A stretch of DNA of 53,560 nucleotides from a virus: positions 1-53,560 of IMG/VR virus record IMGVR_UViG_3300007765_000007. One strand, written 5' to 3'. The notes under the pieces were generated by a model. That model saw only the letters and a list, made by a program, of their open reading frames with translations. It was not told the origin of the DNA and made no database searches. The translations under genes and the position numbers were made by a program. Shown here piece by piece: positions 1 to 39,356 of this stretch; the stretch's first letter is position 1; each line of letters opens with the position of its first letter.

Positions 1-146
1 TTTATAACTTTAACCTTTATAGGTACTTTGAAAAGTTTTTGTAAATATGGTTTTAATTTTCTTGCGTATTTTGGATATTGTGCCCATTCTTCTTTTGAAA
101 TTTTTTCAAGTAAGGATTCGTTTAATATTTTTTTTAACTTAATCAT
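1..146 (-). CDS. Partial hypothetical protein with capsid-targeting-like N-terminus
   Basis: The first ~48 codons of a gene that runs off the left edge. The ATG at 146 overlaps the stop of the upstream gene as ATGA, so translation is probably coupled. The protein begins MIKLKKILNESLLEK, a short amphipathic helix ending in L-N-E, then a basic stretch rich in Lys, Tyr and Pro. The opening closely matches the next gene (MIKLKDIIKES) and the P-loop kinase near 13.7 kb (MIKLQNIIEG). In T4, short N-terminal tags ending in (I/L)xE target internal proteins to the prohead and are removed by gp21. I infer the same role here. Function of the rest is unknown. Confidence 0.65.
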   Translation of the reverse strand, partial: MIKLKKILNESLLEKISKEEWAQYPKYARKLKPYLQKLFKVPIKVKVI

Positions 147-598
147 TTTAAAAGTGTCCAATCTGTAGGTTTACCATATTTTGCTTTATAATACCATTTC
201 TTATCTTTCATACTAAAAATATAAGCAAACTCTTCACCACTATGAAATTTTACTGCATCTCTATTCTTCCACTTACTTGTAGCATTACTTTTCTCTCCTC
301 TATCTCTACCATAAAATACAGTTTCACCTTTTTTTGGACTATCAAATGAATGGTCTTTTCCACCCTTCATACTTTTATCAATAGAAGAAATACCTTGTTG
401 TCCAAGTTTTAATAGTTGTTTAACTTTCATTGGATTATTATAAAATCTTTTTAAATATTTCCCTGCCCATTCTGGATAACCATCCCAATGTCCGTAAGTA
501 CTTACTATTTGTCCATTAGGTGATTCAATACCAACTAACCATCTTGTACCTTCAATAATTAATCCACTCTCTTTTATTATATCTTTTAATTTAATCAT
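143..598 (-). CDS. Hypothetical protein with capsid-targeting-like N-terminus
   Basis: 151 residues, not assigned to a named family. It opens with MIKLKDIIKESGLIIEG, which contains two possible gp21-type sites (I-K-E and I-I-E). The body has a GHWDGYPEWAGKYLKRFY segment (about residues 36-53) and a basic, Lys- and Trp-rich C-terminal half. There is no signal peptide or membrane segment. It lies in the head-gene block with 10 bases to the gene upstream and a 4-base overlap with the gene downstream. A small internal or head-associated protein is my inference from the tag and the position. Confidence 0.7.
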   Translation of the reverse strand: MIKLKDIIKESGLIIEGTRWLVGIESPNGQIVSTYGHWDGYPEWAGKYLKRFYNNPMKVKQLLKLGQQGISSIDKSMKGGKDHSFDSPKKGETVFYGRDRGEKSNATSKWKNRDAVKFHSGEEFAYIFSMKDKKWYYKAKYGKPTDWTLLK

Positions 599-608
599 CG
601 TATTTTCC

Positions 609-1418
609 TTAATAGTTTGTTGTTAATTCAATTCCATTTTTAGGATTTCCCCAAAAACCACGCTGTCGAGTTAATTTGTATTGAGCTTTCATTTTTTTTA
701 CAAACTTCTTAGCCTCAATTTCAGTTTTAAATGTTTCCTTTTTAAACTCTTTATCATATTTAGTAAGAGTAACTGTTGGAACAAAGCTCTTTTCACTCAA
801 TTTCTGAATTTCTTCTCTTATGATTTCTCTTAGTTTTGTTTTTGTTATTTTCATTTTATTATCTATTTCGTTTATCTTACCTTCAGTTATTTTACTCTTT
901 GCAAGTTTTTGCATGAATTGCATTATCTTAGCGGATTCCTTAACAAACTTCAATTCAAACTTATATAGTTCACCCTCTAATTTAAATATCCTTGGGTCTG
1001 TTCCCATATCACCTAATTTCTTTCTGAAGTCTCCCCATGATATTAGAAAGTCTCTACGAGTTTTATAAACTTTATCAAAACCTTTAGTTGCTCTTTTACC
1101 TTCTTTTAAATCTCTATCTTCTGGACCAGTTCCACCGGGTGATTTTAATTTTCTTTTAGGATTCTCTGCCGACATAGTATATCCACAACTCTCTACTTCT
1201 TGACGAATGATTTCACTAACTTTTCTAATTACTTCTTTTGCAACCTTTTCTGGTTTACCTTTATGTTTAGTAGATGCAAAATCCTCTGCATCTTTCTTCT
1301 TCATAGATTTTGCTGCATCCTTTACTTTATCAGAAACTTTGGATGGTGAGAGTTCACCTTTCTGAACAGCATGAACCATTCCCATGAATCGTTGTTGGGA
1401 TTTGGATTTGGCAGGCAT
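609..1418 (-). CDS. DUF3008-like protein fused to a second basic domain
   Basis: 269 residues. Residues 1-55 (MPAKSKSQQRFMGMVHAVQK and the SMKKKDAEDFASTKHKG segment) match my memory of the DUF3008 family, small basic proteins of unknown function that usually stand alone. A linker with the motif SPGGTGPEDRD follows (about 93-103), then a helical region, then from Met189 a helix MKITKTKLREIIREEIQKL and an ~65-residue basic C-terminal domain ending in TTNY. ITEG at 177-180 fits the gp21 cleavage rule. Start: GAGGAGAATAACATG gives a strong ribosome-binding site. It sits directly after the protease gene. It may be a fusion of two small head proteins that the protease separates. An internal start at 854 is less likely because no ribosome-binding site is near. 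Confidence 0.75.
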   Translation of the reverse strand: MPAKSKSQQRFMGMVHAVQKGELSPSKVSDKVKDAAKSMKKKDAEDFASTKHKGKPEKVAKEVIRKVSEIIRQEVESCGYTMSAENPKRKLKSPGGTGPEDRDLKEGKRATKGFDKVYKTRRDFLISWGDFRKKLGDMGTDPRIFKLEGELYKFELKFVKESAKIMQFMQKLAKSKITEGKINEIDNKMKITKTKLREIIREEIQKLSEKSFVPTVTLTKYDKEFKKETFKTEIEAKKFVKKMKAQYKLTRQRGFWGNPKNGIELTTNY

Positions 1419-1419
1419 G

Positions 1420-2043
1420 TTATTCTCCTCGGATTATTTTATTGATTATATCCTCAGCCTTACAATACGAACCACAAGTTCTACCCTGAGTTTGTGCTTT
1501 ATCAACATTCTCACTTAATGGATACATAAATGCACCATGTGTGGATGGATTGGATACAAAATCAAATGCTATTAATTCAAAATCTTTACCTACCTTTAAC
1601 ATTGGTTGGTCATTATCATCTTCGTGTACTGCTTCTACCGAACCCATACCACGAGAACTGATACCTAATTTGATACCATTCTTAAATAATTCTCTTAAAA
1701 TGTTTCCACTTGGTGTAGTTAGAATTTCTACTGTCCCTAACAAATTCTCACCTTCGAAATGCATTTCAGTAATATTATGAGATACATTTTGTAAATTCAC
1801 TACTGAACTATCTGGATGGTCTAATTCACCAAGTGCTCTTTTTTGTTTTACATATCCTTCAGCATAATTCTTTGCTTCTCTCTGTAATATTTCCATAGGA
1901 TACACTCGACCATTTTGATTCTTTGCATCTGCTCTTTGTAATACACCTTTAACAACTAACTTACCATCATTTTCTTTTAATGATTCATTAACTTGTCGTT
2001 TTGATATCTCAAAAGGTATATAATCTACTAATAGTTCTCTCAT
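1420..2043 (-). CDS. gp21: Prohead core protease, T4 gp21-like
   Basis: 207 residues, the usual size for T4 gp21-type maturation proteases (peptidase family S77/U9). These cleave scaffold, capsid and internal proteins inside the prohead after (L/I)xE. Visible features: NGRVYPMEIL near residues 44-53, the catalytic His region GELDHPDS (His76), and the Ser region KLGISSRGMGSV (Ser129/Ser130), followed by a conserved DFVSNPSTHGA segment at 161-171. The C-terminus (NENVDK-like to IIRGE) is variable and may be self-cleaved; QVNES near residue 20 is a possible self-processing site. It lies two genes upstream of the left-edge genes and downstream of the portal, as in other T4-like head modules, so the major capsid gene is probably just beyond the left edge. 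Confidence 0.93.
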   Translation of the reverse strand: MRELLVDYIPFEISKRQVNESLKENDGKLVVKGVLQRADAKNQNGRVYPMEILQREAKNYAEGYVKQKRALGELDHPDSSVVNLQNVSHNITEMHFEGENLLGTVEILTTPSGNILRELFKNGIKLGISSRGMGSVEAVHEDDNDQPMLKVGKDFELIAFDFVSNPSTHGAFMYPLSENVDKAQTQGRTCGSYCKAEDIINKIIRGE

Positions 2044-2044
2044 T

Positions 2045-2503
2045 TTATTTCATCCCTTTAACCATTAAAACACTATCTCTCATAAATTTGGTTACACCAT
2101 CTTTATAAGATTTCTTTATATCTTTTGCCAACTGATCATTTCCTTTTGTTGGGTCTTGTAAAAATACTTGTTCTAATGCAAACATTTGTTTTCTAAATTT
2201 TTGTTCTTGTTTCACTACCATCGATAATGCCTTTTTAGCATCTTTTACATCGGAGGGTCCTTCTGTTATAGATTCACCAGTAAATTGTTTTTTATAATGT
2301 GCATCATCTTTAGTTTTTTGCATCATAGCTTTCTTTTCAATATCTTTTGCCGAACCCTTTTCTGGTTTTGGTCCACTTCCTGGCCCACCTTCTTTTTTTA
2401 ATTTATGGGCTTTCATAGTATCTTCAAGAGTAGGTAATGGTTGTCCAAATTCTCTATTTAGAATATCAAGACCTTCTGCTAAATATTTGTCATTCTGTTT
2501 CAT
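2045..2503 (-). CDS. Probable prohead core or internal head protein
   Basis: 152 residues, highly charged and mostly helical. Not recognised as a named family. It opens MKQNDKYLAEGLDILNREFG, with an L-A-E|G site at residue 10, and has a second I-T-E|G site in the middle (GESITEGPSD), both matching the T4 gp21 cleavage rule. A Gly-Pro motif, KKEGGPGSGPKPEKG (about residues 36-50), is one I recall from head-region proteins of marine phages; its role is unknown. The C-terminal half looks like a coiled coil. Its position directly upstream of the protease (the T4 gp67/gp68/gp21/gp22 neighbourhood) suggests a scaffold core component. Confidence 0.7.
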   Translation of the reverse strand: MKQNDKYLAEGLDILNREFGQPLPTLEDTMKAHKLKKEGGPGSGPKPEKGSAKDIEKKAMMQKTKDDAHYKKQFTGESITEGPSDVKDAKKALSMVVKQEQKFRKQMFALEQVFLQDPTKGNDQLAKDIKKSYKDGVTKFMRDSVLMVKGMK

Positions 2504-3114
2504 TATTGTAATTTCCCAACTTTATTAGCTAATTTAACCAATCGTTCTGAAATTTTGTTCATTGCTTTATGAGTGTTCTTCCAATAAGATTTTGAATCTA
2601 TCTTTAACTCATTTTTCAATTTAACATTCATATCGATTAACTTACTTAATTCATTTAATTTATCTCTAACTTCTCTCATCGATACACCAATCTTTTGTCT
2701 CGGTGTTAATGTGTCATCATTACGATATTTTGTATAACGAGCTTCTTTTATTTCTGTTTTCTTATCAATCTGTTTACCGAATGCAGTTTGAACTCTTGTT
2801 ACACTTGTAATACCCTTTAAACCTTTTTTCAATTGTCTACCAACCATCGTCTTTGCTTGTCCAGCACCCGATGCATCAACTATAATTTTACCAACACCAT
2901 CAACACTAACTGCCCATTTAGCTTCTACAACTTTGAACTCTGTTCCTTTTTCAGCAGTTTTCTTTCTTTTCTCATTCCCTTTAGATTGAAAAGCGTTTGG
3001 TGTAGAATATTCACCACCAGCTGTTGCAGTAGTGGAAACTTCTTTAATTTCTTTTTTGATTATTGTACGAAGTAATTCTGTAAACTTTTTTCTACTTATC
3101 TTTGTGGACATCAT
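2503..3114 (-). CDS. Hypothetical head-region protein with LRxIIKKEI helix
   Basis: 203 residues, unrecognised. It starts MMSTKISRKKFTELLRTIIK; the helix continues KKEIKEVS, followed by TATAGGEYSTPNAFQSKG (about residues 30-47), a Gly/Tyr/Thr-Pro motif I recall next to such helices in other marine phage head proteins. The middle is a small basic mixed domain, and the C-terminal third is a predicted coiled coil. GGGGAG precedes the double ATG at 3114/3111, so either Met may start it. It overlaps the upstream gene by 23 bases and the downstream gene by 1 base (stop/start TAATG). Probably a structural or core head protein. Confidence 0.68.
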   Translation of the reverse strand: MMSTKISRKKFTELLRTIIKKEIKEVSTTATAGGEYSTPNAFQSKGNEKRKKTAEKGTEFKVVEAKWAVSVDGVGKIIVDASGAGQAKTMVGRQLKKGLKGITSVTRVQTAFGKQIDKKTEIKEARYTKYRNDDTLTPRQKIGVSMREVRDKLNELSKLIDMNVKLKNELKIDSKSYWKNTHKAMNKISERLVKLANKVGKLQ

Positions 3115-3964
3115 CTAACTCCCCTACCAATTCATAATATCTCATCAACGAAACAACATTAGAATCTTTTACATGAGTTCCTTTTGTTGTAGTATCCGTA
3201 TGAGTAATTGCTTCGGTTAATTTAATTTTAGTAATCTTATCATCAACTTTTTGTAAATGTGATTTTAAGGTTTTTTTAATTTTTATAACTTCAGCATCCA
3301 TGAATTCTCGTAAAGAGTTAGTATTTGAAAGATTATTAATATACTCTTTCAATAAATTTCTTTGATTTTCATTTAATGTGCTGTATTTTTTATTGAACTT
3401 ATCAACCAATAACTGGTATGTTAACAATCTTAAATCTTTATCTTGTTTATTTAAGTTCTCTTGAACACCACCTTTAGTTTTCTTGGAGCGTTTGACTTTA
3501 GTGATATTTTCGATAATTGTTACTTTACTATCAGTTTCTTCTACTGGAGATATTTTTTCTTTTAAAGATTCACCTTCAAATACATTGTAAATTGAAGCCA
3601 AAAGTTTATATCCTGGAATTCGTGTATTAAAAAAATCTGAAGAATTATAACATTCTTTAATTGTTTTAATTAAATTATATTTTTCATTTCGTAGTTTACG
3701 ATTTGATAATTTTCTACGATTTTTAATTACTGCAGAAAGCAAAATATTTGCTTGTTCATTAGTTTTATATGTTTTTTCCGTCAAAATCTTGTAAAGTTCA
3801 TATTCTTTCCCAAGTTCTGAATTTTGTTTAAATGTTTCTTTTAAAATCTTAACTGCCTTACTATTTTCTGTACCATTAAGTACATCAACAGTTATTTGAC
3901 GAGTCAGCAATTCAAAAAGAATACCAGTATTTTTTATTTTACTGTGCTTCTTGTTATAATTCAT
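3092..3964 (-). CDS. Conserved head-region hypothetical protein
   Basis: 290 residues from the ATG at 3964. I prefer this start to the upstream ATG at 3976, because GGAG inside ATGGAGTGTTTGATG is placed to serve the second ATG. The N-terminal part (KHSKIKNTGILFELLTRQIT, continuing VDVLNG) is a compact helical domain. A basic linker (KVKRSKKTKGG, near 160-170) separates it from a second helical domain of charged coiled-coil character that ends near the C-terminus. It has no membrane segment or catalytic motif. Its position between portal and prohead protease fits a scaffold or core protein, but the sequence alone does not prove this. Confidence 0.72.
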   Translation of the reverse strand: MNYNKKHSKIKNTGILFELLTRQITVDVLNGTENSKAVKILKETFKQNSELGKEYELYKILTEKTYKTNEQANILLSAVIKNRRKLSNRKLRNEKYNLIKTIKECYNSSDFFNTRIPGYKLLASIYNVFEGESLKEKISPVEETDSKVTIIENITKVKRSKKTKGGVQENLNKQDKDLRLLTYQLLVDKFNKKYSTLNENQRNLLKEYINNLSNTNSLREFMDAEVIKIKKTLKSHLQKVDDKITKIKLTEAITHTDTTTKGTHVKDSNVVSLMRYYELVGELDDVHKDK

Positions 3965-4023
3965 CAAACACTCCATTCATGATAAGTTTATACATAAATA
4001 AATATAAAAACTTCAAATAATCG
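3965..4023 (-). promoter_or_regulatory. Intergenic gap with ATATTTAT motif
   Basis: A 59-base gap between the portal stop and the next start, the longest gap in the left half of the window. On the coding strand it contains TTTTTATATTTATTTATG, with the octamer ATATTTAT at 4005-3998. The same octamer occurs in five other gaps. Candidate promoter or processing signal; its direction is not certain, because the complement resembles a T4 late promoter box. Confidence 0.35.
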
Positions 4024-5859
4024 TTATTTATCTTCCGTAAAATCTTTATATTCTTTATCTATTTCTTCACTTTCAATTGTTTCTTTTAATATTTCTCTTG
4101 CTTTACTCCCAAATGATTTTTTTAATCTATCAAAATGTGCTAAAGCCATAGGTATTTTTGGTCTACCAAGTGGATCCCGTCCTCTTGCACTACCATCTTT
4201 ACTATATTTACTTCCCTCTTTTGGTCTACCAGCTCCCTCAAAACCACCTTCAGGTGCTCCACCTTCGTCATCAAAGATAGAACCCGCTAAAGTTTCAGGT
4301 GGTTCTGCCTCATCATCGGCTCCCAATCCAATTGCAGCCATATCACTTGGTGTTCCAACTGAATCACCACTATCTGCTGGATCATTACCCTCATTTTCAA
4401 TTTGAGAATATCTAAATTTTTGTTTCTGGTCTTCTATTAATTCTTTTTCAAGTATTTCTTGTTCTCTTGGTGTAAAATTGAAAATGTGTTTATACACCCA
4501 ATCACTTGACATTAAACTATTGTCTTTTACATCACGAGCTAAATTAACTTTATTACTCCACAATTCAATCTTCTCTTGTTCATAAATTGTAGATGGATTA
4601 GTTAATTTCAATTCAAAGTTTACCAATTCTTCATCTGTATATCCTTGTGCGTATAAATGAACAACTGCAATCTTTGTCAATTCACTTGTTACAATTCTTT
4701 GTATTCTTTCAATTGTACGAGCAAATCTAACATCCTCTGCTGCTAATGTTGCTTTACTTCCAAGACTTTCTTCATATCCAAGAAATGCTTTTGGTATTCT
4801 TAAAGCAGCTAACATACGATTTTTTAAATACTCAATGTCTTCTGTAGTTTCATATTGCATTCCTGGTAATGATTCAACTTGTGTTCCACTATCTCCACCA
4901 CGAACTGGCATAAAGAAGTCTTCTGTAAGATTCTGTATGTTAAATTTCAAATTATAATCACCAGTAGTATCATCCATAAAAGGTGTCTTCTTCATTTTGT
5001 TGATTATTCTTTGCATATAATTGTCAACTTCGTTTGGTGGAATATTTCCAATATCAACTTTGAATACTCTCTTCTCAGGTGCTCTCATGATTCTATGAAT
5101 CAACATAGCATCTTCCATCAATGTAATTTGTTTCCATACTTTACGAGCACTTTCAATCATTGATTTTCCATAAGGTAATAAATTACTATCATTGGCTAAT
5201 CTAAAGTGTGCTATTTGAAAGTTCTCAAATTCAATCTTTTTATTTGTAGTTGAACGAGCAAAATAAGGATGAGCTTGTTCCATAGCTTCTAAATAAAATT
5301 TTGTATAATAAGGATTCTCTGGGTCTTCTCCCTCTGAACGAATTAGTTCATAAGCTGACATTGGAACTACATTATGAATTCCATACTTATCACTAATATC
5401 TAAGTACAAAAAGAAGTCTCCATACTTACACATATTTCTTACCCACGGCCATAGATTAAATTCTATGTTCATAATGTCATAGAATAAGTTATGTAGTATT
5501 TGTTTTATTTGATCATTATCACTTTGTATTTCTAACGACTCACCATACGCACTTTTCATTGTTGATTCATCTGCGTATGTATCAAGTGCAGATGCAATAA
5601 TTGAATCTGCCTCCATTGATTCATAATCTTTAAATAACCCAAGTCGTGCAGCCTGCATTTGTGCGTGAGTGGAATATCCACTATTCGCCATATCCAACCC
5701 ACTATGTAATTTAGAATACCTGTCAACCAAATGTGATTTAACTTGTGATTGAACTTGTTCTGTATCGGCTATTTTTAGTTTCCTACCACCAACATTTCTT
5801 ACAATTACATTTGTACTAAATAATCGTTGTAATCGACTAAATAATGATTTATCTGCCAT
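4024..5859 (-). CDS. gp20: Portal vertex protein, T4 gp20-like
   Basis: 611 residues, slightly longer than T4 gp20 (524). This family forms the dodecameric ring through which DNA enters and leaves the head and on which prohead assembly starts. Diagnostic parts: MEADSIIASALDTYADEST near residues 80-98 (the conserved helix around the wing), NLWPWVRNMCKYGDFFLY near 137-154, the stem and crown region with VFKVDIGNIPPNEVDNYM near 265, LGYEESLGSKATLAAEDVRF near 362, and a low-complexity acidic and Gly-rich C-terminal tail (about 490-560) followed by a basic segment. The start MADKSLFSRLQRLF has GAGG upstream. It lies 12 bases after the terminase, the usual order in T4-like genomes. Confidence 0.95.
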   Translation of the reverse strand: MADKSLFSRLQRLFSTNVIVRNVGGRKLKIADTEQVQSQVKSHLVDRYSKLHSGLDMANSGYSTHAQMQAARLGLFKDYESMEADSIIASALDTYADESTMKSAYGESLEIQSDNDQIKQILHNLFYDIMNIEFNLWPWVRNMCKYGDFFLYLDISDKYGIHNVVPMSAYELIRSEGEDPENPYYTKFYLEAMEQAHPYFARSTTNKKIEFENFQIAHFRLANDSNLLPYGKSMIESARKVWKQITLMEDAMLIHRIMRAPEKRVFKVDIGNIPPNEVDNYMQRIINKMKKTPFMDDTTGDYNLKFNIQNLTEDFFMPVRGGDSGTQVESLPGMQYETTEDIEYLKNRMLAALRIPKAFLGYEESLGSKATLAAEDVRFARTIERIQRIVTSELTKIAVVHLYAQGYTDEELVNFELKLTNPSTIYEQEKIELWSNKVNLARDVKDNSLMSSDWVYKHIFNFTPREQEILEKELIEDQKQKFRYSQIENEGNDPADSGDSVGTPSDMAAIGLGADDEAEPPETLAGSIFDDEGGAPEGGFEGAGRPKEGSKYSKDGSARGRDPLGRPKIPMALAHFDRLKKSFGSKAREILKETIESEEIDKEYKDFTEDK

Positions 5860-5871
5860 ATTTTACCTCAC

Positions 5872-7446
5872 TTATAAGAGCCACTTTAACGACTCTTTTT
5901 TTCTTTCGCGGCCTACTTCCCAATCCCATTCACCATTATCATTGTCTTCGGGTACATATAGACCATCTATATCTTGAAATCTATCAAGAGTTTTCTTTGT
6001 TAATTCAATTCCTTCTGTTCGTAATCTTAAAGCAGTATCACGAACCCATAAACCAATAGCAAAAGACATAACTAAATCATCATTATATCCCCTCATTGCC
6101 TCTGCTCTATTGTTTAGATAAATAAATGTAAATAATTCATCTATCAATCTATTGGAACGAACCGTTACTGACTCATCCCTAAAATATTCCTCTAACTTTG
6201 CAATAATCAAAGGTCGAGTTTTCATAGTGGTACTGAATCCAGCCACCATTTTCTTTTCTTCACTTCTATATCGATTGTTCATTTGATGAGCAATATCGAC
6301 ATATCTTAAATCTTTACTTGTATAAAATAAATTAGGATAATCCCTATCTATTACTTGTTGGATGGTTGCCCAACCAATATTGTTGTTTTCTATAATTAGT
6401 AAAGCATCGTTATATTCTGTTGCAATACTAACTAACATATTACCAAAATCTTTAGTAGGAACTCTACCTTTATACTCTGCCACTTGTTCTACTTTTTCAA
6501 CATCCATAACATGAAATGCACTATAGTCTGCACTATCACCTCTACCAACATCTGCCGTTACCACATAACTCTTTGTATAATTTGGTGGCTCCCACACCCA
6601 TAAATTATTATCAACACCTCGTTTTTCAATTGGTTCTTTCACTTGAGTTTCTCTACAATTTTCCAATATAACACCATCAATTACTGAAGTACCAGAAGTA
6701 ATAAAATCACAATCACACTCTTGTGCTGCACTCTGTATTCCTAACAATGTATCTTGTTCATCTCTCCACTCTTGATTTCTATCTGGATGAACCGTCCAAT
6801 GTAATTTAATAAAATTAAACATTCCACGACCTTCTTCTGCCTCAACCCAATTTTTATGAAACCAATTACCAACTCCGTTTGGTGTAGAAAGTGCAATACA
6901 ACTACCACCAGTAGTTAGTGTTTGTTGTGAAGCAGTCCATATATCATCAATCTTATCAACAAAAGCAGCCTCATCTAATATCAATAATGATAGAGCTTCA
7001 GAACGAGCTGCTTCAGGTCCTGAAGAAACTGCCTTAATCTGTGAACCATTCATATATCGAAGATTTAATTTGTTATCCTCAACACATTTTTGTTTCAACC
7101 AAGATGGTAAATTTGAATGCATAACACGAACTTTCGTTACTAAGTTTTTAGCAACTTCTTGTTTTGTAGCAATAACCAACACATTCTTATCTTGATGAAA
7201 TGTCATCATCCATAAAGAATATCCAGCGGTTAATGTACTGATACCAAGTTGTCGTGCCTTCAAGATAATATTAAATCTATTTTTTTGAAACTCATTTACA
7301 GTTTTCTCTTGAAAATCATATAAAGAAAATGGAATTTTACCCTGTATTGGATGTTGTATTACACAATACTTCTTCATAAAATATGCAGGATCCTGAGCAC
7401 ACTTTACATACTCTTGTTTAATTACTTCTTTAATTTGAGTTGCCAT
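5872..7446 (-). CDS. gp17: Terminase large subunit, T4 gp17-like
   Basis: 524 residues. The DNA-packaging motor: an N-terminal ATPase and a C-terminal RNase H-fold nuclease. ATPase motifs: an adenine-binding Gln region near FSLYDFQEKTV (40-50), a P-loop at 63-71 reading KARQLGIST, Walker B LLILDEAAFV (154-163), and coupling motif ALSTPNG (185-191). Nuclease: TADVGRGDSADYS (297-309), LIIENNNIGWATIQQV, and YNDDLVMSFAIGLW near 480. The P-loop lacks the usual GK(S/T) lysine and instead has Lys63 at its start, a deviant Walker A also known in other terminases. Start ATG overlaps the upstream stop by one base (TAATG) with AGGTG upstream. The small subunit is not identifiable; one of the genes between 8.1 and 8.9 kb may be it. 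Confidence 0.96.
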   Translation of the reverse strand: MATQIKEVIKQEYVKCAQDPAYFMKKYCVIQHPIQGKIPFSLYDFQEKTVNEFQKNRFNIILKARQLGISTLTAGYSLWMMTFHQDKNVLVIATKQEVAKNLVTKVRVMHSNLPSWLKQKCVEDNKLNLRYMNGSQIKAVSSGPEAARSEALSLLILDEAAFVDKIDDIWTASQQTLTTGGSCIALSTPNGVGNWFHKNWVEAEEGRGMFNFIKLHWTVHPDRNQEWRDEQDTLLGIQSAAQECDCDFITSGTSVIDGVILENCRETQVKEPIEKRGVDNNLWVWEPPNYTKSYVVTADVGRGDSADYSAFHVMDVEKVEQVAEYKGRVPTKDFGNMLVSIATEYNDALLIIENNNIGWATIQQVIDRDYPNLFYTSKDLRYVDIAHQMNNRYRSEEKKMVAGFSTTMKTRPLIIAKLEEYFRDESVTVRSNRLIDELFTFIYLNNRAEAMRGYNDDLVMSFAIGLWVRDTALRLRTEGIELTKKTLDRFQDIDGLYVPEDNDNGEWDWEVGRERKKESLKWLL

Positions 7447-7832
7447 TATTCACCTACTAGCTGACCTGTCAACCAAACTGATGTTGATGTGGCCACTACT
7501 CCATAAGTAAACCATAACCACTTGTTCTCATGCCATTTCGGTTTGACAACTTTAATTTTTTCTTTATAAAGTTCATTAGTCTCTTTTAATAAATCAATTT
7601 GATGTAATCTCGTTGAAATTATTAAAGAATCTAAAGCAGAATTTTCTTCTAACTTTTTAACTTGAAGTTCTAAATCTGAAATTAAACTTGTTTGTAAACT
7701 ATCCGATGTTTCGTATTGTTTGAGTTTGTTTGCCCACTCAATTACATCCGATTTAGGTACAGGTATAGTTTCTTCTTCAGATTGTCCATAAAGAAACCCA
7801 ACTAATAGTAATATGTATATAATATATCTCAT
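7446..7832 (-). CDS. Exported or membrane coiled-coil protein
   Basis: 128 residues, unrecognised. The N-terminus, MRYIIYILLLVGFLYGQSEE, is a signal-peptide-like or anchor segment. Residues ~25-90 form a heptad-rich coiled coil (SDLELQVKKLEENSALDSL), and the C-terminus has a second hydrophobic segment (WFTYGVVATSTSVWLTGQLV, about 106-125). No good ribosome-binding site precedes the ATG, which follows an AT-only gap. The two membrane segments with a coiled coil between them could serve lysis (holin or spanin-like) or anchor a virion part. I infer envelope location only. Confidence 0.65.
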   Translation of the reverse strand: MRYIIYILLLVGFLYGQSEEETIPVPKSDVIEWANKLKQYETSDSLQTSLISDLELQVKKLEENSALDSLIISTRLHQIDLLKETNELYKEKIKVVKPKWHENKWLWFTYGVVATSTSVWLTGQLVGE

Positions 7833-7847
7833 ATATATAAATATATA
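7833..7847 (-). promoter_or_regulatory. Short AT-only gap with ATATTTAT motif
   Basis: A 15-base gap holding ATATTTAT on the coding strand (7844-7837), immediately upstream of the membrane protein gene, which lacks a ribosome-binding site. The complement reads TATAAATA at 7836-7843, identical to the T4 late promoter box but pointing against the genes. Candidate regulatory site only. Confidence 0.3.
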
Positions 7848-8129
7848 CTACTTAGAAAATTTCTTCAAATATTTTAAAGCCTCATCACTATCGTCAAATT
7901 CGACAGCTTTCTTAGCTTCAGCAATATGTTTCTTTGTAGTAGTTACCTTTCGTTTAAGGGATGCTACCTCTTTTTTGTTAACTTTCTTCTTAGATTCGAG
8001 TGCAGTAACTTTCTTTTCAAGTTCTTTAGTTTCTGTCTCTTTTACCTTTATTGCCTTGTCTAACTTTTTGACTTCTTCTTTTTTCTTTCCGCCAAAAAGA
8101 AATTCAAGAATCCAATCTATGATTCCCAT
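7848..8129 (-). CDS. Small coiled-coil protein with amphipathic N-terminus
   Basis: 93 residues, unrecognised. It opens with a short hydrophobic or amphipathic helix, MGIIDWILEFLFGGKKK, and continues as an almost uninterrupted Lys/Glu-rich coiled coil (KVKETETKELEKKVTALESK) to about residue 70, then a short acidic and aromatic tail. AAAGGAG precedes the start. It overlaps the upstream gene by 26 bases. The membrane-touching N-terminus and the neighbouring two-segment membrane protein suggest a pair acting at the inner membrane, but this is inference. Confidence 0.68.
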   Translation of the reverse strand: MGIIDWILEFLFGGKKKEEVKKLDKAIKVKETETKELEKKVTALESKKKVNKKEVASLKRKVTTTKKHIAEAKKAVEFDDSDEALKYLKKFSK

Positions 8130-8385
8130 TGTGTTCTCCTTTACTTGGTAAATCTATACCAACTTCGTTACAAATTTCTTCTAATGATAAATATCCAGTT
8201 CTATCATGTTCATCTAAATCCATCAATTTTTCTAATATCATTCTATACACTCTCGTTACTTTATCTGTATCTTCATTATTAACCTTCATGTGATACTCAG
8301 CAGCAACATTACCTAATTGGGAAACCATTTCCATTAATTCAATTATTACACTTTCAGGCAGTATCAAGTTCCTTTGATTCTTCAT
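8104..8385 (-). CDS. Small helical hypothetical protein
   Basis: 93 residues, unrecognised. It contains a helical, acidic segment (PESVIIELMEMVSQLGNVAA, then KVTRVYRMILEKLMDLDEHD) and a Ser/Gly/His-rich tail. AGAGG lies six bases before the start. The gene overlaps its upstream neighbour by 32 bases and its downstream neighbour by 26 bases. Its position one to three genes before the terminase large subunit makes a small-terminase-subunit role possible, but no helix-turn-helix is evident. Confidence 0.65.
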   Translation of the reverse strand: MKNQRNLILPESVIIELMEMVSQLGNVAAEYHMKVNNEDTDKVTRVYRMILEKLMDLDEHDRTGYLSLEEICNEVGIDLPSKGEHNGNHRLDS

Positions 8386-8908
8386 CTATGGCCTCTTCTA
8401 ATTTAGTTATATATTCTCGGGCCTCATCAATTACTTTATTAAATTGATCCTCTCCCATTTCCCATTTTTCTTTTTCAAGTTCAATATCTTTAACACCTAC
8501 CGAATTAAAAAATTCTGCCTTACCCTCTGTTTGTTCAAATTCATCAATACTTTGTTTTAAATCTTTTAAATATGCCTTTTTATTCTCATTAATCTTCTTC
8601 TTAGCATATTGTTCATATTCACCATTGATACGAAGCTTATTCTCCATCTCAATCTGACAATCGAAACAATGTCCATTTATTCTCCAAAACTTATTATCAA
8701 GTTTTTTCTTCATTGTTTTTTTACAAGATGGGCAAAACCAAGGCATTCTTACTGTTGCCATAATATCAGTTAATTCTGATTTTACATCTCCTTTTTCTTT
8801 TTGTTTACCCTCATATCCAACTTGAATATATTTTTTTGTATGTTCTTTACCTGAAAGTAAATCTTTTAATACTTCATTTTGTCTTTCTGATTCTTTACTA
8901 TATCCCAT
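8354..8908 (-). CDS. Zinc-ribbon coiled-coil protein
   Basis: 184 residues. A CPSC...CFDC zinc ribbon (Cys59, Cys62, Cys81, Cys84) sits in the N-terminal half, followed by a long charged helical region (about 88-180) that looks like a coiled coil. No catalytic motif. TTAGGAG precedes the start. It lies just upstream of the terminase block. The zinc ribbon plus long helix could bind nucleic acid or serve as a packaging or head accessory protein. I recall similar zinc-ribbon proteins near terminase genes in marine T4-like phages but cannot name the family. Confidence 0.72.
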   Translation of the reverse strand: MGYSKESERQNEVLKDLLSGKEHTKKYIQVGYEGKQKEKGDVKSELTDIMATVRMPWFCPSCKKTMKKKLDNKFWRINGHCFDCQIEMENKLRINGEYEQYAKKKINENKKAYLKDLKQSIDEFEQTEGKAEFFNSVGVKDIELEKEKWEMGEDQFNKVIDEAREYITKLEEAIDEESKELDTA

Positions 8909-8916
8909 TGTAACTC

Positions 8917-11900
8917 CTAACCGAACTTTAAAGTACCAAGTATTTGATTGATTGGTGCAAAACTTCCAGTAAATTTATATACCTTACCCTTGTATTTAAA
9001 TACAATACCTTCACTTGGAACAATTGCATCTAATCCACCGATTGCATTTAATTTCTCAATTTGTATTTTTAACTTTTTTAATTTATCTATATTACCAGGT
9101 TTTTGTAAATCTTTCATCGCACTAATAACTTCTTTTCTCATTTTCTGTACTGATTGTTTTGGTGATGCAGCCATATATCCTTGAATATTTTTTAATATTT
9201 CTGCACCTACACCAAAGAACAATACTTCAAATGGTTTTATATTTTGTTTAAAAATCTTTTGATGATCCATTTTATCCGTACTTAATATCCAATCTAAAAA
9301 TTTAGGATTATCTTTATAATCTTTTTTAATATCTCTTACCTTATATGATTTATCAAAGAATGCCCATCTATTAACCAAACTAACAAATTGGTTTGGTTTT
9401 AAACTAACTTTAAATTGTTTAGATGCATTGAATACATACTCTCTCCACCATGCTTCATGGTATTCACCTAACCTATCATTATCTTTCAATCCATACTGAG
9501 ATTGTAATTTTTTCAATTGTCCTAAAAATTTATTTTTCATCTTATTAAAATTTTGATGTTTAGGTACAGTTAAGAAATTTGGTTTTCCAATTTTAAACAT
9601 TGATTGTATATGTTGATTCATTTGTTTAATCATACCTGCCAACATACGAGCTGAATCTTTTGGTTGTCCAATTGGTTTTCCACTTTCATCATACTCTAAT
9701 GTACCATGAAATACTATTTCTGCCACATCATAATCTACTACATTTGCAGTTTTAGGATACATAACCTCTAAATTCATCCACTTACTACCATTTCCAAAAA
9801 CTTTTTCTTTTTGTTTATCACTTAAACTACCAATGGCTTTTTCTAAATTTTTCATCGCACCTACAAAAGCCTTTTCAATTTCACCTCTACCACTAAACAT
9901 ACTTTTTATACCACTCGTGGTAGGTGCAGTTTTACCATGATTTTTCAAATGTCCTTTATTTCGAGCTGCTCTTAACTTCCCATCAACCCAACTTACCATT
10001 AAGTTTTGTCCGTCAAGTTTCTCTGTAACTCCATCTTCTCTATCAAGAGTTCCACCTAACCCATCAATAATTATCTGTTTCAAATCTGAAAATGTAAGAT
10101 TATTGTCATCAAATGGATGACTCATATGTCCATAGGCTCCGCCCATAAGTAGTAACTCCTTTGTATCTTTTGTTATATCTATTTGTTCTTGTAATTTTTT
10201 AATTTTTTCAACACCTTTAGTAATATCTTTCATATCAAAAGTAGTTGAATCTTTAACTTTGGCTGTAGGTTTACCGAAGAATTTAACTATTTCCCAACCT
10301 AATTTATTTGCCATATTTGTCATATGTGCTCTGTACTTTGGATATGGATTATCAACACTATCTTCGTTTGATGTTTTTTGATTTATCGTTTTACCAAATG
10401 TAACTGTATCAACTCTATCTGCTACATATTGAAAATCGTATGCAGGGTCTGTTGCTCTCTTATAGTTTACAATATCACCAATTACTTCCCATCCCAATAT
10501 ATCTGCATGTTTTGGTGATACTCTTTTATAATCATCAAATGAATTAAAGAAATCATACAATCCCTCATCATCTAATATAGCAGCACTAAAGTGATGTCCA
10601 AGTGCACTTACTTCTTTTATTATATTTTTTATGTCTGGTTTATGATAAAACTCATATAATTTTTTAAACTTATTTGTCATCATTTGGTACACACCTTTAT
10701 TATAATATCCAAATAATTTCTTAAATAATTTTTCTCTTTGTGAATCGTTTAACTTAGGATGTCCTAAGATATCTCTCATTGTAGTTCCAGAAACTTCTTT
10801 ACCACCAACATTCATACTAATATGTGGAGCAGTTAAAATATATCCATGTTTCCACGCTGGTTCCAGATTACCTTTATTCTTTTTAAAATCTTGATAATAA
10901 GTTTTTCCACCACTTTTCTTCTTACCACCAGCCAATCTTCCTGCATCTTTTTTACCAAAGATATAAACCACTGCAGTAGTATCTTTATCAAACTTTTTTA
11001 ATGTATTGGATGCAACATATGGTACTTTTTCTTTTATAATTCTATTTGCAGGCACACCCATTTTAACCATATGACGAACTTTTTCTGTATAGTTCATGGG
11101 GTGTCTTGGTGGTTTTTTAATATCTGATGTAGTTATATACGCTACATCAACTTTGGATTGTAACCATTTAAAGGTTTTCAAATGGTGGGGCCCAAACGGC
11201 TGAAACCGTCCACCGTAAATACCTACGATTTTTTTAATTTTTGTTTTATCTTCTATCACATTGGATGTAAAATCCCCTTTCTCACTAATAGAATATACAA
11301 CATTTTCCATATATAAGTCAATCGTTTTTTCAAGATTTTCCATTTTTTTACTCGTATCAGTTTTCATAAATGGGCCTCTACGAAGTGTTCTAAATTTTAC
11401 TGGAACTTTTTGTCCAAAAAATTTTTTAGGTGCCAAGATTTTTAATGTAACCATATCTGTTTTATTATCAATTTTGACTAACTCAAAATCTATTTCTTTA
11501 TATTTTCTACCTTTATGTTTAAGATTAAATCCTGTTATATATCTATGAACCTTTCTACCTGATACTGCTTGTTTTGCTCTTTCATTTACATTTTCTGAGA
11601 ATTTTAACCTATTTTTTGCTAATGGTGATAACCATTTTATTTTAGCTCTTGATAATTTTTGTAAATTTCTTATTGTCATATTATCTAAATAATCAATTAA
11701 ATTTTTATATGCACTTCCTGATGGATTTATTCCTTTAACAGATGCATACATTGTTCTTAACATTTCTATGTGTGTAGGTGAAATATCTATTTCTTTTAAA
11801 ATCTCTTCAGTTCTTTGTTGTCTTAATTTTTTCTTCCACTTCTTTCTACCTTTTGCACTTGGTGAGGGTATCACTCCTGCAGGTGCTCCAAACTCTTCTT

Positions 11901-12099
11901 CAACATTTTTTTTAATTATTCTGAATTTTAACGCGGGTCTCCCATTGATGAGTAAATCACCCTTTTCATTCCAATCAATAGATTTAACTACAACGGGCTT
12001 GTTTTTGAATCTACCCATTTTAACAGTATCACCAATCTCAATTGGTAAGTCTATACCTTCTAATAGTGGTTTGGTTAGCCATTTTGTTAATTGGGTCAT
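8917..12099 (-). CDS. Cytidylyltransferase-fold and ligase-type nucleotidyltransferase fusion
   Basis: 1060 residues with several domains. Residues 1-14 (MTQLTKWLTKPLLE) look like a capsid-targeting tag ending in L-L-E|G. Residues 20-62 (IEIGDTVKMGRFKNKPVVVK, then INGRPALKFRI) form a small beta module. Residues 290-450 are a nucleotidylyltransferase of the NMNAT/cytidylyltransferase fold: GRFQPFGPHH at 297-306, VYIFGKKDAGRL near 378-389 and VSGTTMRDIL at 436-445, matching the HxGH and SxTxxR elements. Residues ~640-1060 carry ligase-type motifs: VTEKLDGQN (Lys694 as motif I KxDG), WMNLEVMYP (774-782, motif III-like), and SEGIVFKYKGKVYKFTG (1029-1045, motifs IV and V). It may make or use NAD or nucleotide adducts and seal RNA or DNA ends. 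The substrate is unknown. The tag suggests packaging in the head, as for T4 Alt. Confidence 0.82.
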   Translation of the reverse strand: MTQLTKWLTKPLLEGIDLPIEIGDTVKMGRFKNKPVVVKSIDWNEKGDLLINGRPALKFRIIKKNVEEEFGAPAGVIPSPSAKGRKKWKKKLRQQRTEEILKEIDISPTHIEMLRTMYASVKGINPSGSAYKNLIDYLDNMTIRNLQKLSRAKIKWLSPLAKNRLKFSENVNERAKQAVSGRKVHRYITGFNLKHKGRKYKEIDFELVKIDNKTDMVTLKILAPKKFFGQKVPVKFRTLRRGPFMKTDTSKKMENLEKTIDLYMENVVYSISEKGDFTSNVIEDKTKIKKIVGIYGGRFQPFGPHHLKTFKWLQSKVDVAYITTSDIKKPPRHPMNYTEKVRHMVKMGVPANRIIKEKVPYVASNTLKKFDKDTTAVVYIFGKKDAGRLAGGKKKSGGKTYYQDFKKNKGNLEPAWKHGYILTAPHISMNVGGKEVSGTTMRDILGHPKLNDSQREKLFKKLFGYYNKGVYQMMTNKFKKLYEFYHKPDIKNIIKEVSALGHHFSAAILDDEGLYDFFNSFDDYKRVSPKHADILGWEVIGDIVNYKRATDPAYDFQYVADRVDTVTFGKTINQKTSNEDSVDNPYPKYRAHMTNMANKLGWEIVKFFGKPTAKVKDSTTFDMKDITKGVEKIKKLQEQIDITKDTKELLLMGGAYGHMSHPFDDNNLTFSDLKQIIIDGLGGTLDREDGVTEKLDGQNLMVSWVDGKLRAARNKGHLKNHGKTAPTTSGIKSMFSGRGEIEKAFVGAMKNLEKAIGSLSDKQKEKVFGNGSKWMNLEVMYPKTANVVDYDVAEIVFHGTLEYDESGKPIGQPKDSARMLAGMIKQMNQHIQSMFKIGKPNFLTVPKHQNFNKMKNKFLGQLKKLQSQYGLKDNDRLGEYHEAWWREYVFNASKQFKVSLKPNQFVSLVNRWAFFDKSYKVRDIKKDYKDNPKFLDWILSTDKMDHQKIFKQNIKPFEVLFFGVGAEILKNIQGYMAASPKQSVQKMRKEVISAMKDLQKPGNIDKLKKLKIQIEKLNAIGGLDAIVPSEGIVFKYKGKVYKFTGSFAPINQILGTLKFG

Positions 12100-12248
12100 T
12101 TTTTTAACTCTTGTTTAATTATTTCTCTAATCTTTTTAACTACAAGTCTTTCAGTTAAATTATCTTTAAGTTCCATTTTATCCCTTGAAGACATTCTTAA
12201 TCTTTTCTTTCCGATTTCTCTCGGTTCATCTATATGAAATGTTTTCAT
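12096..12248 (-). CDS. Small basic protein ending in IREIIKQELKK helix
   Basis: 50 residues from the ATG at 12248, chosen because it starts just after the upstream stop with GAGATAA in front; a longer reading from 12284 would overlap the upstream gene by 34 bases. The protein is very basic (MKTFHIDEPREIGKKRLRMS) and ends LVVKKIREIIKQELKK, the same short helix seen inside the DUF3008-like protein and near the N-terminus of the 2503-3114 protein. Its stop overlaps the start of the large fusion gene as ATGA. Unknown function; the helix suggests a head-associated or packaged peptide. Confidence 0.6.
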   Translation of the reverse strand: MKTFHIDEPREIGKKRLRMSSRDKMELKDNLTERLVVKKIREIIKQELKK

Positions 12249-12250
12249 AA

Positions 12251-12565
12251 TTATCTCGGTGGTTTTGATTCCCAAGGCCCCCAATGTGCACTTTTAACCA
12301 TTAATTTTGCTGCCTCTAAATATTTGTATTTATAAAGTGGATATCCTTTAACTGGTATTCCACCCAATTCATAATACCTTTTTTTAGATATTTTAATTTT
12401 ATTATCATTACTAAAATCTAATACCGTATTTCCCTTTTCAATCCAACAATGTCCAAATGGTTTCCCATCTCTCGCCATAATAGCAACTCCATGAACCAAT
12501 CGATAAGAATTATCCTTACCAATCATCCACCTACCATTTGCTGCGTAACAATCACCTTTAGGCAT
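12251..12565 (-). CDS. Small protein with Cys/His pair, possible cysteine-hydrolase-like fold
   Basis: 104 residues. It begins MPKGDCYAANGRWMIGKDNS (Cys6), continues LVHGVAIMARDGKPFGHCWI with His38, and has TVLDFSND (Asp50). The order Cys, His, Asp/Asn with a C-Y-x-A-N start and an HxW(I/V)E segment resembles small NlpC/transglutaminase-like proteins that I recall from phages. Enzyme activity is not proven. It directly follows the GH108 lysozyme (one base shared) and could be a cell-wall accessory hydrolase or an unrelated small protein. No signal peptide. Confidence 0.65.
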   Translation of the reverse strand: MPKGDCYAANGRWMIGKDNSYRLVHGVAIMARDGKPFGHCWIEKGNTVLDFSNDNKIKISKKRYYELGGIPVKGYPLYKYKYLEAAKLMVKSAHWGPWESKPPR

Positions 12566-13047
12566 TATACTGACAACGCTCTCTTAAACCAACCAAACAA
12601 AAACTTCTCTTGTTCAGGTTTCTTATTTACTAAATCGTAGTAATGTTTCATTCTGTAACATCTTACTCTATCTAATGATGGTTTATATGTATCGAGTGCA
12701 CTTTTTGTACCTGGACCAAATCCACCATCAACTGCTAAATCAGCACCTTTACCATTACATGCTCGTTGTAAAATTCTTACGGCAGTTCCTCTACCTTGAT
12801 TCACACACATATCAAAAAAGATATGTTTTAAATCATCAGATAAATCATCTACCTTATTCTTATCCCAATAATCTCTTTTATAGATTTCTTTAGCACCTTC
12901 TTTAGTTAAATTCTTTATATCTACATCGGGATAGAATCTACCCGCGATACCAAAATTAGTCTCTCCACCTAAATCTTTTGGGTCGTGAACATAACCGCCT
13001 TCATGATGTAAAGTTACTTCTATAATTTCATCGAATGTAGTTAACAT
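12565..13047 (-). CDS. GH108 N-acetylmuramidase endolysin
   Basis: 160 residues from the ATG at 13047. This start has AGGAGAAAATAAAATG and lies just after the upstream stop; an upstream in-frame ATG at 13155 would add 36 residues that overlap the kinase gene. The family hydrolyses the glycan backbone of peptidoglycan. The catalytic motif is HHEGGYVHDPKDLGGETNFG, with Glu16 as the expected catalytic acid, followed by the Tyr-Trp-Asp segment KRDYWDK and the C-terminal peptidoglycan-binding-3 type region (GGFGPGTKSALDTY). There is no signal peptide, so it needs a holin or an export route, which I could not identify with confidence. Most likely the host-lysis enzyme. Confidence 0.92.
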   Translation of the reverse strand: MLTTFDEIIEVTLHHEGGYVHDPKDLGGETNFGIAGRFYPDVDIKNLTKEGAKEIYKRDYWDKNKVDDLSDDLKHIFFDMCVNQGRGTAVRILQRACNGKGADLAVDGGFGPGTKSALDTYKPSLDRVRCYRMKHYYDLVNKKPEQEKFLFGWFKRALSV

Positions 13048-13048
13048 T

Positions 13049-13783
13049 TTATTTTCTCCTAAGTAGTTTTTGTTTACTAACCCATAATCTTCCGATTTGG
13101 TTTTTGATGGGTTGGTTAACAAACTTTCTAACAACTTTAGTAACCAATGGAACAAATTTTGCCTCCGCTTGTTTTTCGTCTAAATGAACTGAATTGTCAA
13201 TTATCACGAAATTGTTTTTAAATAATGATTGGAAAGCACCAAGATTCTTCTGTACATCTTTCCAACTCTTCTCTAATAAATCTTCTGGTAAAACTCTATC
13301 TCTCAACTTGTTTCTTTTTTGTGCCACCTCTAATGATGTGTTTACCATACACATATAGGTATCATATCCCTCTGCTTCTAACTCTTTTTTCATAGAGTGT
13401 ATCTTACCAAAGTGATGTCCTGTACCATCTATAACCATTCCTAACTTACCTTGTCGATATAATTTCATTCTTTGTTTGGTAAGTGATTTTGAATACTTTC
13501 TCAATCCACTTGCATCTGGCCCATCACCTGTTAAGTTCTGAAATACTTCATCTGGCATCTTATCTAACTCTGTACCAAATCCGTATTTGTTTAATAAGTG
13601 TTTTAACTCTTTATCAGAATTAACCATTTTCATACCACTCATTGCTATATTAAATTTATCTGGAATACCAAATAGATTTTTTGCAATATAAGTTTTACCA
13701 CTTCCTGGACCACCTGCAAGAAATACTGCTTTGAATATACCTTTGTCTTGTACACCCTCAATAATATTTTGTAATTTAATCAT
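13049..13783 (-). CDS. P-loop kinase (zeta-toxin-like) with capsid-targeting-like N-terminus
   Basis: 244 residues. After a short leader, MIKLQNIIEGVQDKG, comes a P-loop FLAGGPGSGKTYIAKNLFG (Walker A at 24-31). A Mg-binding MVIDGTGHHFGKI segment and a lid with Arg/Lys (VAQKRNKLRDRVLPEDLLEKS) follow, as in small-molecule or zeta-toxin-type kinases. The leader closely matches those of the two left-edge genes and contains I-I-E|G. A zeta-like enzyme would phosphorylate a sugar nucleotide or other small substrate; the substrate is unknown. The tag suggests it is packaged in the head and injected. The C-terminus is basic (WVSKQKLLRRK). Confidence 0.78.
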   Translation of the reverse strand: MIKLQNIIEGVQDKGIFKAVFLAGGPGSGKTYIAKNLFGIPDKFNIAMSGMKMVNSDKELKHLLNKYGFGTELDKMPDEVFQNLTGDGPDASGLRKYSKSLTKQRMKLYRQGKLGMVIDGTGHHFGKIHSMKKELEAEGYDTYMCMVNTSLEVAQKRNKLRDRVLPEDLLEKSWKDVQKNLGAFQSLFKNNFVIIDNSVHLDEKQAEAKFVPLVTKVVRKFVNQPIKNQIGRLWVSKQKLLRRK

Positions 13784-38394: not shown

Positions 38395-39356
38395 ATAATC
38401 CCCAAATGTTTTAATACCGATGTTTGTTGTTTATATGCCCATTCATGAAATGATATTGGTTTTTCTTTCCATTTCATTTTATCTAAATCATAGTAATTGT
38501 GTTTCATCTTATTTGCAAGTGGAAAAGAAGCACCATAGATATAAGAAAATTCTAAAACTTTATTATCCATAATATCAAATTTAATATTTGGTGCATTTAA
38601 TTTTTTTTGAATAGTAATTAATTTCTGAATAAATTCATCTGAAAAATCTGTAGGTTCTATATCTTTTACTAAAGGTTTTTCTCCTCTTCCCACCCAATGT
38701 TCTTTATTGATATTTTTTATATGTGGGAATGAATTTGGTTCTTCAAAATATGTATTAGTTTTTTGTTTGAAACCATACAATTGATTATCAGATATAAAGA
38801 TTTGATATTCATATTCTACCTCTATGTAATCTTGTACTAAACATGGAAAGAAGTCTTCCCAATTATAACATTCTGAAATAAATTTTTGTATATCTTTTAA
38901 ATGTTCTGGTTTCCACATAAAAAAAGAACTTTCAGTACCAGCACCATATGTTGATTTTACTACTTTATTTAATGGAAAGGTCTGTATTAACCCTTTTATA
39001 TTATTACAAACCACACTCGGTGCATGTATATCGAATTTTTTTAATAACTCATATTGTCTTACTTTATTATCATAGTAATAATATGATTTTTTATTTGGCC
39101 ACATTTTTTCACCATAATGATTATATAATTTATCAAAACATTTAGAGTGAAGTTTTTTATCAGGTAAAGCATGTGCGAATCTACCTATATAGAATTCACC
39201 ATCATAATTTTCATAATCTATTAATTTATAACTTATATTTTTTGATTTAAATAAATCTTCAAACTTTTCACAATAGAATTTATTTAATGTATTTTGTTGT
39301 TTATTTAAACCATCTGGTATATGATAAATTGAATTATCTTTATGTAATGCAACCAT
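38391..39356 (-). CDS. ATP-grasp-fold enzyme
   Basis: 321 residues. KVVKSTYGAGTESSFFMWKP (Lys and flexible Gly loop), PCLVQDYIEVEYEYQIFISD (the acid/hinge region) and IKFDIMDNKVLEFSYIYGAS (metal-binding D/E residues) match an ATP-grasp core. Such enzymes join a carboxylate to an amine or thiol (peptide-like ligases). Here the partner might be a sugar amine or a peptide. It sits between the GT32-like gene and the tandem Hint gene. GAGGGTTAATG precedes the start. Confidence 0.82.
   Translation of the reverse strand: MVALHKDNSIYHIPDGLNKQQNTLNKFYCEKFEDLFKSKNISYKLIDYENYDGEFYIGRFAHALPDKKLHSKCFDKLYNHYGEKMWPNKKSYYYYDNKVRQYELLKKFDIHAPSVVCNNIKGLIQTFPLNKVVKSTYGAGTESSFFMWKPEHLKDIQKFISECYNWEDFFPCLVQDYIEVEYEYQIFISDNQLYGFKQKTNTYFEEPNSFPHIKNINKEHWVGRGEKPLVKDIEPTDFSDEFIQKLITIQKKLNAPNIKFDIMDNKVLEFSYIYGASFPLANKMKHNYYDLDKMKWKEKPISFHEWAYKQQTSVLKHLGII

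Follow-up and report, generated by a model that had tools for sequence, protein, structure and literature searches.

A conserved N-terminal decapeptide as a probable capsid-targeting sequence on diverse proteins of environmental phages

Introduction

The T4 genes ipII and ipIII start MKTYQEFIAE↓A/S (arrows mark known or candidate cleavage sites), and T4 mutagenesis has shown that residues 4 and 7 serve targeting, whereas residues 8 and 10 serve processing (review, PMC9026906). Polyvalent proteins are multi-domain phage proteins that are thought to be injected, and many are found in portal-terminase phages (PMC5512222). Here, we describe the N-terminal tags encoded in the window, by which we mean the whole 53,560-nucleotide (53.6-kb; 30% G+C) IMG/VR virus record IMGVR_UViG_3300007765_000007. 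A T4-type head module, encoded on the minus strand, occupies the left 13.8 kb of the window, and no near relative of the window was found among the annotated phages searched.

A preliminary description of the window had listed six proteins with an N-terminal (L/I)xE site, and had proposed that these sites are T4-type tags cut by a gp21-like protease and that a P-loop kinase and a nucleotidyltransferase/ligase fusion enter the host with the DNA. All six sequences were confirmed. Comparison with relatives indicates that these tags very probably direct proteins to the capsid, in a new sequence dialect, and that the kinase and the fusion enzyme are very probably packaged in the head. All six sites are supported by conservation in relatives, although the protein encoded at 2503-3114, which has the position of gp67/gp68, probably belongs to the prohead core and is less well explained as an enzyme that is injected.

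A conserved decapeptide near the portal gene

A portal search yielded 80 loci from relatives; as the loci share descent, p-values serve as guides. Loci are cited below by number. The conserved form of the tag is the decapeptide MIKLK(D/N)(I/L)(L/I)xE. In the relatives, the region that separates the protease gene from the scaffold gene is an array of small genes. Most of these are unrelated to one another, yet MIKLKxIIxE is the start of many, and in L002, the nearest relative, five consecutive genes have a start of this type. MIKL starts were found in 46/237 genes at +2.5 to +7.5 kb from the portal gene and in only 5/611 at >15 kb. Hydrophobic-x-E came next in 48/51 of the MIKL genes near the portal gene, a set that was not chosen for that feature. 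When gene families were counted, the strict tag was present in 13/87 at 1-8 kb past the portal gene versus 2/569 far from it (p=1e-10).

When the back-translated tag was used to search 2.9 million viral contigs, it was found in at least 120 stretches, and 135/138 tag-pattern matches, among the matches listed, begin open reading frames (ORFs) of ≥50 amino acids. A permuted control of equal degeneracy (MKLIK...) occurred in 39 stretches in the whole collection, with 10/39 at such ORF starts.

The bare (L/I)xE motif is common. Outside the head module, 8/42 genes of the window have it in residues 6-25, as do 23% of 20-residue stretches taken from protein interiors; because about 20% of unrelated genes have one, it is weak evidence for any single protein. 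The motif is enriched in the head module (12/18 versus 8/42 genes, p=6e-4), also when A/G/S/V/C is required at P1' (7/18 versus 2/42, p=0.002), but about six of the 12 sites are probably due to chance (those of the protease, 3092-3964, 7848, 8104, 12096 and the lysozyme). Thus, the motif on which the preliminary description relied does not carry the case, and the conserved decapeptide does. That the sites are due to chance, a common motif having been picked out in the preliminary description, is barely credible given the enrichment tests and the permuted control; this explanation is refuted for MIKL-type tags and may hold for individual weak sites.

MIKLK might instead be a feature of the mRNA, namely an A/U-rich start region or a form of translation coupling, since the genomes are AT-rich, the codons for K and I are rich in A/U, and the start of many tagged genes adjoins or overlaps the preceding stop codon. 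However, synonymous codons vary freely, with all six Leu codons used at position 4 and near-equal use of GAT (29) and GAC (28) for D6 among the matches listed. The conserved hydrophobic-x-E that follows MIKL and the rarity of the tag elsewhere in the same genomes also make an mRNA-level origin very improbable, and the codon data indicate that the tag is a peptide signal, conserved independently of codons. The T4 late promoter TATAAATA was tried as an upstream feature and was not enriched (0/80 tagged genes versus 16/505). Another sequence, TATATTTAT, one of six motifs tried, lies ≤60 nucleotides upstream of 9/80 tagged genes versus 11/505 others (L124-L242) and is possibly a late-promoter variant.

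The residue following the tag Glu is often, though not always, small. The kinase tag is one residue shorter than the MIKL decapeptide and the fusion tag is longer; both are conserved in relatives, so that the comparison among related phages which the preliminary description had proposed as a check came out in its favour. The strings MIKLKDIL, MIKLKDLL, MIKLKNIL and MIKLKNLL had no printed occurrence in the literature searched, and comparison of the tagged cargoes with annotated phages revealed no close tagged relative in a cultured phage.

Correspondence with T4

At the positions that matter in T4, MIKL tags have L4, I/L7, L/I8 and E10. The predicted gp21-like protease was confirmed: it matches Pfam Peptidase_S77 (E=4.5e-26), and the His and Ser motifs GELxHP and G(I/V)SSRG are common to it and T4 gp21. 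An S77 protease was detected in 14/28 tagged contigs >30 kb and in 0/17 controls (1/18 counting the known G001; p=0.0015).

T4 gp23 is known to be cut at FLTE↓AE. In the relatives, where the capsid protein was examined because its gene falls beyond the edge of the window, a conserved QLIDE↓AS aligns with this site. At the sequence level, nearly every expectation that was tested agreed with the T4-type reading: the conservation of tags among relatives, the matching positions, the protease, the capsid-protein site and one tag on unrelated cargo.

Cargo range and cargo exchange

Unrelated proteins of one genome bear the same tag, and the tagged proteins form at least 80 cargo clusters without detectable mutual similarity. 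Recognized cargo includes NUDIX, RNase_T exonuclease, RimK-type ATP-grasp, M23 peptidase, lysozyme, AAA_33/zeta kinase and DUF5824 proteins.

The window and L002 are 97.6% identical through 143-598 and the ten tag codons of the left-edge gene. The DNA of the left-edge tag is thus the same in both, while beyond the codon for E10 the sequences are unrelated. Across 223 tag instances, DNA identity starting upstream ended ≤45 nucleotides from the ATG in 34 matches, versus 6 in the next 155 nucleotides. Identity ending at the tag may reflect recombination at the tag or replacement of whole, similarly tagged genes; either way, the result is a slot with changing cargo. The converse was also found, as the 2045-2503 protein family has MKQNDKYLAE↓G in the window and MIKLKKIMSE↓A in relatives.

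These data bear on whether the tag only builds the prohead core, so that the proteins bearing it would be scaffold or core peptides, either cut up and discarded or retained in the head, and would do nothing in the host. The 2503-3114 protein, the 2045-2503 family and the DUF3008 protein are encoded among core genes, and T4 gp67, gp68 and gp22 undergo the same cleavage (PMC9026906). However, a core does not need NUDIX, RNase_T-type exonuclease, RimK-type ATP-grasp, kinase or peptidoglycan hydrolase proteins or the fusion enzyme, and the cargo behind the tag changes fast. We regard a role confined to the core as quite improbable.

Two further sequence modules were seen behind tags. A Cys motif, CECGGxCCS, is found in many array proteins (L002:11570-12784; L045:14229-14540; also L009, L012, L059, L155 and L202), often followed by a second (I)TE site; could it bind metal inside the head? 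The second module, (W)(D/E)RxFGxPLPTL, lies directly behind the tag in otherwise different proteins (window 2045-2503; L044:13568-14391; L047:16884-17255; L215; L218) and may be an extended packaging signal. A protein of 62-64 residues, annotated as RpsU (ribosomal protein S21) in Microcystis phage Mel-JY01, has its gene between the tagged array and the scaffold gene (L044:17763-17951; L045:17500-17688; L047:18642-18836).

The kinase and the fusion enzyme

The closest fold matches of the kinase are polynucleotide kinases (Clostridium thermocellum Pnkp and T4 Pnk) and zeta toxins, and its sequence matches are adenylate kinase, tRNA-Sec kinase, zeta and Pnkp. It is a predicted P-loop kinase of the polynucleotide kinase kind by fold, with a sequence that also fits zeta toxins. 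In an AlphaFold model, residues 1-9 are the only stretch with a predicted local distance difference test (pLDDT) score below 50, and the fold begins right behind the predicted cut.

The fusion enzyme combines several disparate predicted enzymatic domains in one polypeptide encoded near the packaging genes. In relatives, the fusions repeatedly start MNKLTxWLxxxxLxE (MNKLTEWLIDDLLTE, MNKLTKWLVESILTE, MNKLTQWLIDPYVKE, MSKTLTEWLVKPLLE). The CTP_transf_like profile scored 17 bits against the window fusion, under the cut-off of 21, and 28.7 bits, above it, against the L047 orthologue. In the C-terminal domain, the consensus retains EKLDGQN, which contains the nucleotidyltransferase motif KxDG; no Pfam match to this ligase-like domain was found, and searching its profile against PDB sequences gave chance-level matches only. 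The same polypeptide includes the kinase in L044 and L045, whereas that of L007 has an HD domain together with a CCA-adding enzyme (PolyA_pol E=1e-30).

In eleven fusions, the linkers contain 27 [LI]xE↓[AGS] sites versus 9.8 expected (2.75-fold), the effective number being smaller because homologues share sites; D, K and T controls gave 0.9-1.1. Candidate sites are nearly absent from the domains. As the tag is the only full-consensus site in the window fusion, where a weaker IIKE↓V follows the NMNAT domain at residue 496, dicing is better supported in the relatives than in the window. One tag would bring a chain of enzymes (KOW-like, CCA-adding/HD, kinase, NMNAT and ligase) into the head. We tentatively propose, from the placement of these sites, that the fusion is a head-delivered polyprotein whose linkers are cut by the prohead protease so that separate enzymes are injected.

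Proposed role of the tagged proteins

By analogy with T4, the tag (MIKLKDILxE, or MNKLTxWLxxxxLxE in the fusion enzyme), a short helix that is amphipathic, would bind the prohead core while the head is being assembled, the S77 protease would cut behind the Glu and release the cargo within the head, and the cargo would exit via the tail with the DNA, acting before phage gene expression. Packaging, cleavage and ejection are each inferred from T4. We hold with good confidence that the tags target proteins to the capsid as those of T4 do, in a dialect of their own, with head loading, cleavage and delivery.

Several observations weigh against parts of this proposal. The loci are related, and so lack statistical independence. 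No S77 protease was detected in half of the tagged contigs, most of them fragments. The EG pair of the kinase is kept even where the kinase is internal to a longer protein, and could therefore belong to the kinase fold. The top four fold matches of the ligase-like domain, all T4 Rnl1/Rnl2, are not significant (E 0.3 to 1.5). As a class, 76 tagged cargoes are not depleted of [LI]xE[AGS] (20 versus 17.4 expected), and thus give no general sign of protease avoidance. Avoidance was dropped as a general packaging test, since the ligase domain is depleted (2 versus 15.5) and the tagged cargoes are not; the portal and mature capsid proteins are inconsistent in this respect.

The kinase, the fusion and the CCA-adding/HD domains of relatives might form a delivered RNA-repair kit that acts against host defences cleaving tRNA or other RNA, to which the NMNAT-like domain would supply nicotinamide adenine dinucleotide (NAD) or another nucleotide; we put the chance of this at somewhat under even. 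The main rival as to purpose keeps the same packaging and assigns the enzymes to NAD salvage by a NadR-like kinase and NMNAT. The pairing of an NMNAT-like domain with a P-loop kinase is reminiscent of bifunctional NadR, and NUDIX enzymes are tagged in relatives. However, both fold and sequence place the kinase nearest to polynucleotide kinases and zeta toxins, and relatives add CCA-adding, HD and RNA-ligase-like domains, which makes NAD salvage unlikely.

Somewhat less likely than not is a broader reading, in which the fusion is delivered as a polyprotein and the decapeptide serves environmental myoviruses as a portable mark for a large arsenal of injected proteins that changes fast. If the tags act as proposed, the proteins that uncultured phages inject could be listed from sequence with a ten-residue pattern. 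The majority have no assigned function, sit in a cargo-swapping array and would be prime anti-defence candidates by the precedent of T4 IPI. Delivery of an RNA-repair polyprotein in the head would let some phages counter tRNA/RNA-cleaving immunity at time zero, whereas T4-style repair enzymes are made later.

Organization of the head module

The order of the module is kinase, GH108-type lysozyme, fusion enzyme, small genes, terminase, portal, core genes, S77 protease and DUF3008 protein, after which tagged genes extend past the left edge of the window (Table 1). The second site of the 143-598 protein is retained as ITE↓G/A in L002 and L059. In the 2503-3114 protein, the N-terminal region of the window copy reads ...KKEIKE↓VS, and the (I/L)xE↓(A/V)S site recurs in about 20 relatives. 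The DUF3008 protein was ruled out as the gp22 scaffold because the scaffold gene of relatives directly precedes the capsid gene; a near-copy of its internal helix begins a separate gene in L071.

Table 1. Features of the head module in the window
Feature	Position	Strand	Remarks
Left-edge tagged gene	1..146	minus	open at contig end; tag MIKLKKILNE↓S at 117-146
Tagged array protein, PHROG 1987	143..598	minus	tag MIKLKDIIKE↓S at 569-598
Second site LIIE↓G of 143-598	551-553 (residue 16)	minus	N-terminus MIKLKDIIKE↓SGLIIE↓G
DUF3008-type protein	609..1418	minus	without N-terminal tag; internal tag-like helix MKITKTKLREIIREEIQKLSE
Prohead protease, Peptidase S77 (T4 gp21 family)	1420..2043	minus	Pfam match
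Tagged protein MKQNDKYLAE↓G	2045..2503	minus	tag at 2474-2503
Probable prohead core protein (gp67/68 position)	2503..3114	minus	conserved (I/L)xE↓(A/V)S site, residue 25
Portal protein	4024..5859	minus	reference point in position tests
Terminase large subunit	5872..7446	minus	
Fusion enzyme	8917..12099	minus	tag MTQLTKWLTKPLLE↓G
RNA-ligase-like domain of fusion	about 8920-10146 (residues 652-1060)	minus	
Cytidylyltransferase/NMNAT-like domain of fusion	about 10657-11232 (residues 290-481)	minus	
KOW-like stretch of fusion		minus	weak
Tag of fusion enzyme	12058..12099	minus	MNKLTxWLxxxxLxE in relatives
Polynucleotide-kinase/zeta-like P-loop kinase	13049..13783	minus	tag MIKLQNIIE↓G
Tag of kinase	13757..13783 (residues 1-9)	minus	pLDDT < 50; fold starts after tag

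Outside the module, inspection by eye revealed a long gene run at 13823-47519 that resembles glycan/surface modification (glycosyltransferases, radical SAM and SGNH hydrolases), and Hint/intein-like C-termini (e.g. NVEPNDVYFAGGVLVHN) on three proteins (39356-40288, 43572-44609 and 45788-47104).

Comparison with known systems

In Agrobacterium phage Atu_ph07, the kinase homologue is gp53 (numbering checked with RNR = gp122/123), which lies within CDS 31-76, a cluster for which 29/46 gene products were detected in virions by mass spectrometry, a figure for the cluster as a whole (PMC6102473). An early [LI]xE is found in 26/45 of the cluster versus 11/76 (p=9e-7), and gp53-gp63 (L084) are eleven consecutive genes with short tag-like starts, such as MRWEQLTE, in a dialect that differs from the MIKLK type. 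By eye, gp53-gp63 form a paralogue array with ADP-ribosyltransferase-like YRGM motifs, one member being fused to the kinase. Two other phages were considered and set aside as direct evidence. In Mel-JY01, the gene order is the same and the NMNAT-ligase fusion is present (start MGKLINILLSE), but MIKL tags are few, with two tagged genes near 60.3 and 62.1 kb. The comparison with HTVC008M, where the kinase starts MIPFILKE↓G, is neutral because the related enzymes are separate genes adjoining replication genes.

Like polyvalent proteins, the fusions are multi-domain phage proteins, but polyvalent proteins are not defined by a capsid-targeting tag, and here candidate prohead-protease sites lie between the domains. 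The ejection proteins of phiKZ, 201phi2-1 and SPN3US are numerous head-internal proteins cut after Glu by a gp21 relative, but a shared decapeptide of this kind is not described in the literature consulted on them. The predicted polynucleotide-kinase-like and RNA-ligase-like activities recall tRNA repair by T4 Pnkp and Rnl1, which are made after infection as separate, untagged proteins.

T4 Alt is a head-carried, injected enzyme processed by gp21, much as the kinase and fusion are predicted to be, but it is an ADP-ribosyltransferase, whereas the cargo here is a kinase, an NMNAT/ligase fusion, CCA-adding, NUDIX and other enzymes. Close counterparts are T4 IPI-IPIII, which also have a ten-residue N-terminal helix that ends in hydrophobic-x-E and is hydrophobic at positions 4, 7 and 8, one conserved tag before diverse cargo and a gp21-type protease in the same genome. 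They differ in that the peptide here is MIKLKDILxE, many cargoes are recognizable enzymes and the tagged arrays lie inside the head operon, between protease and scaffold. T4 established the principle, and the tag dialect, the cargo range and the polyprotein arrangement appear to be new.

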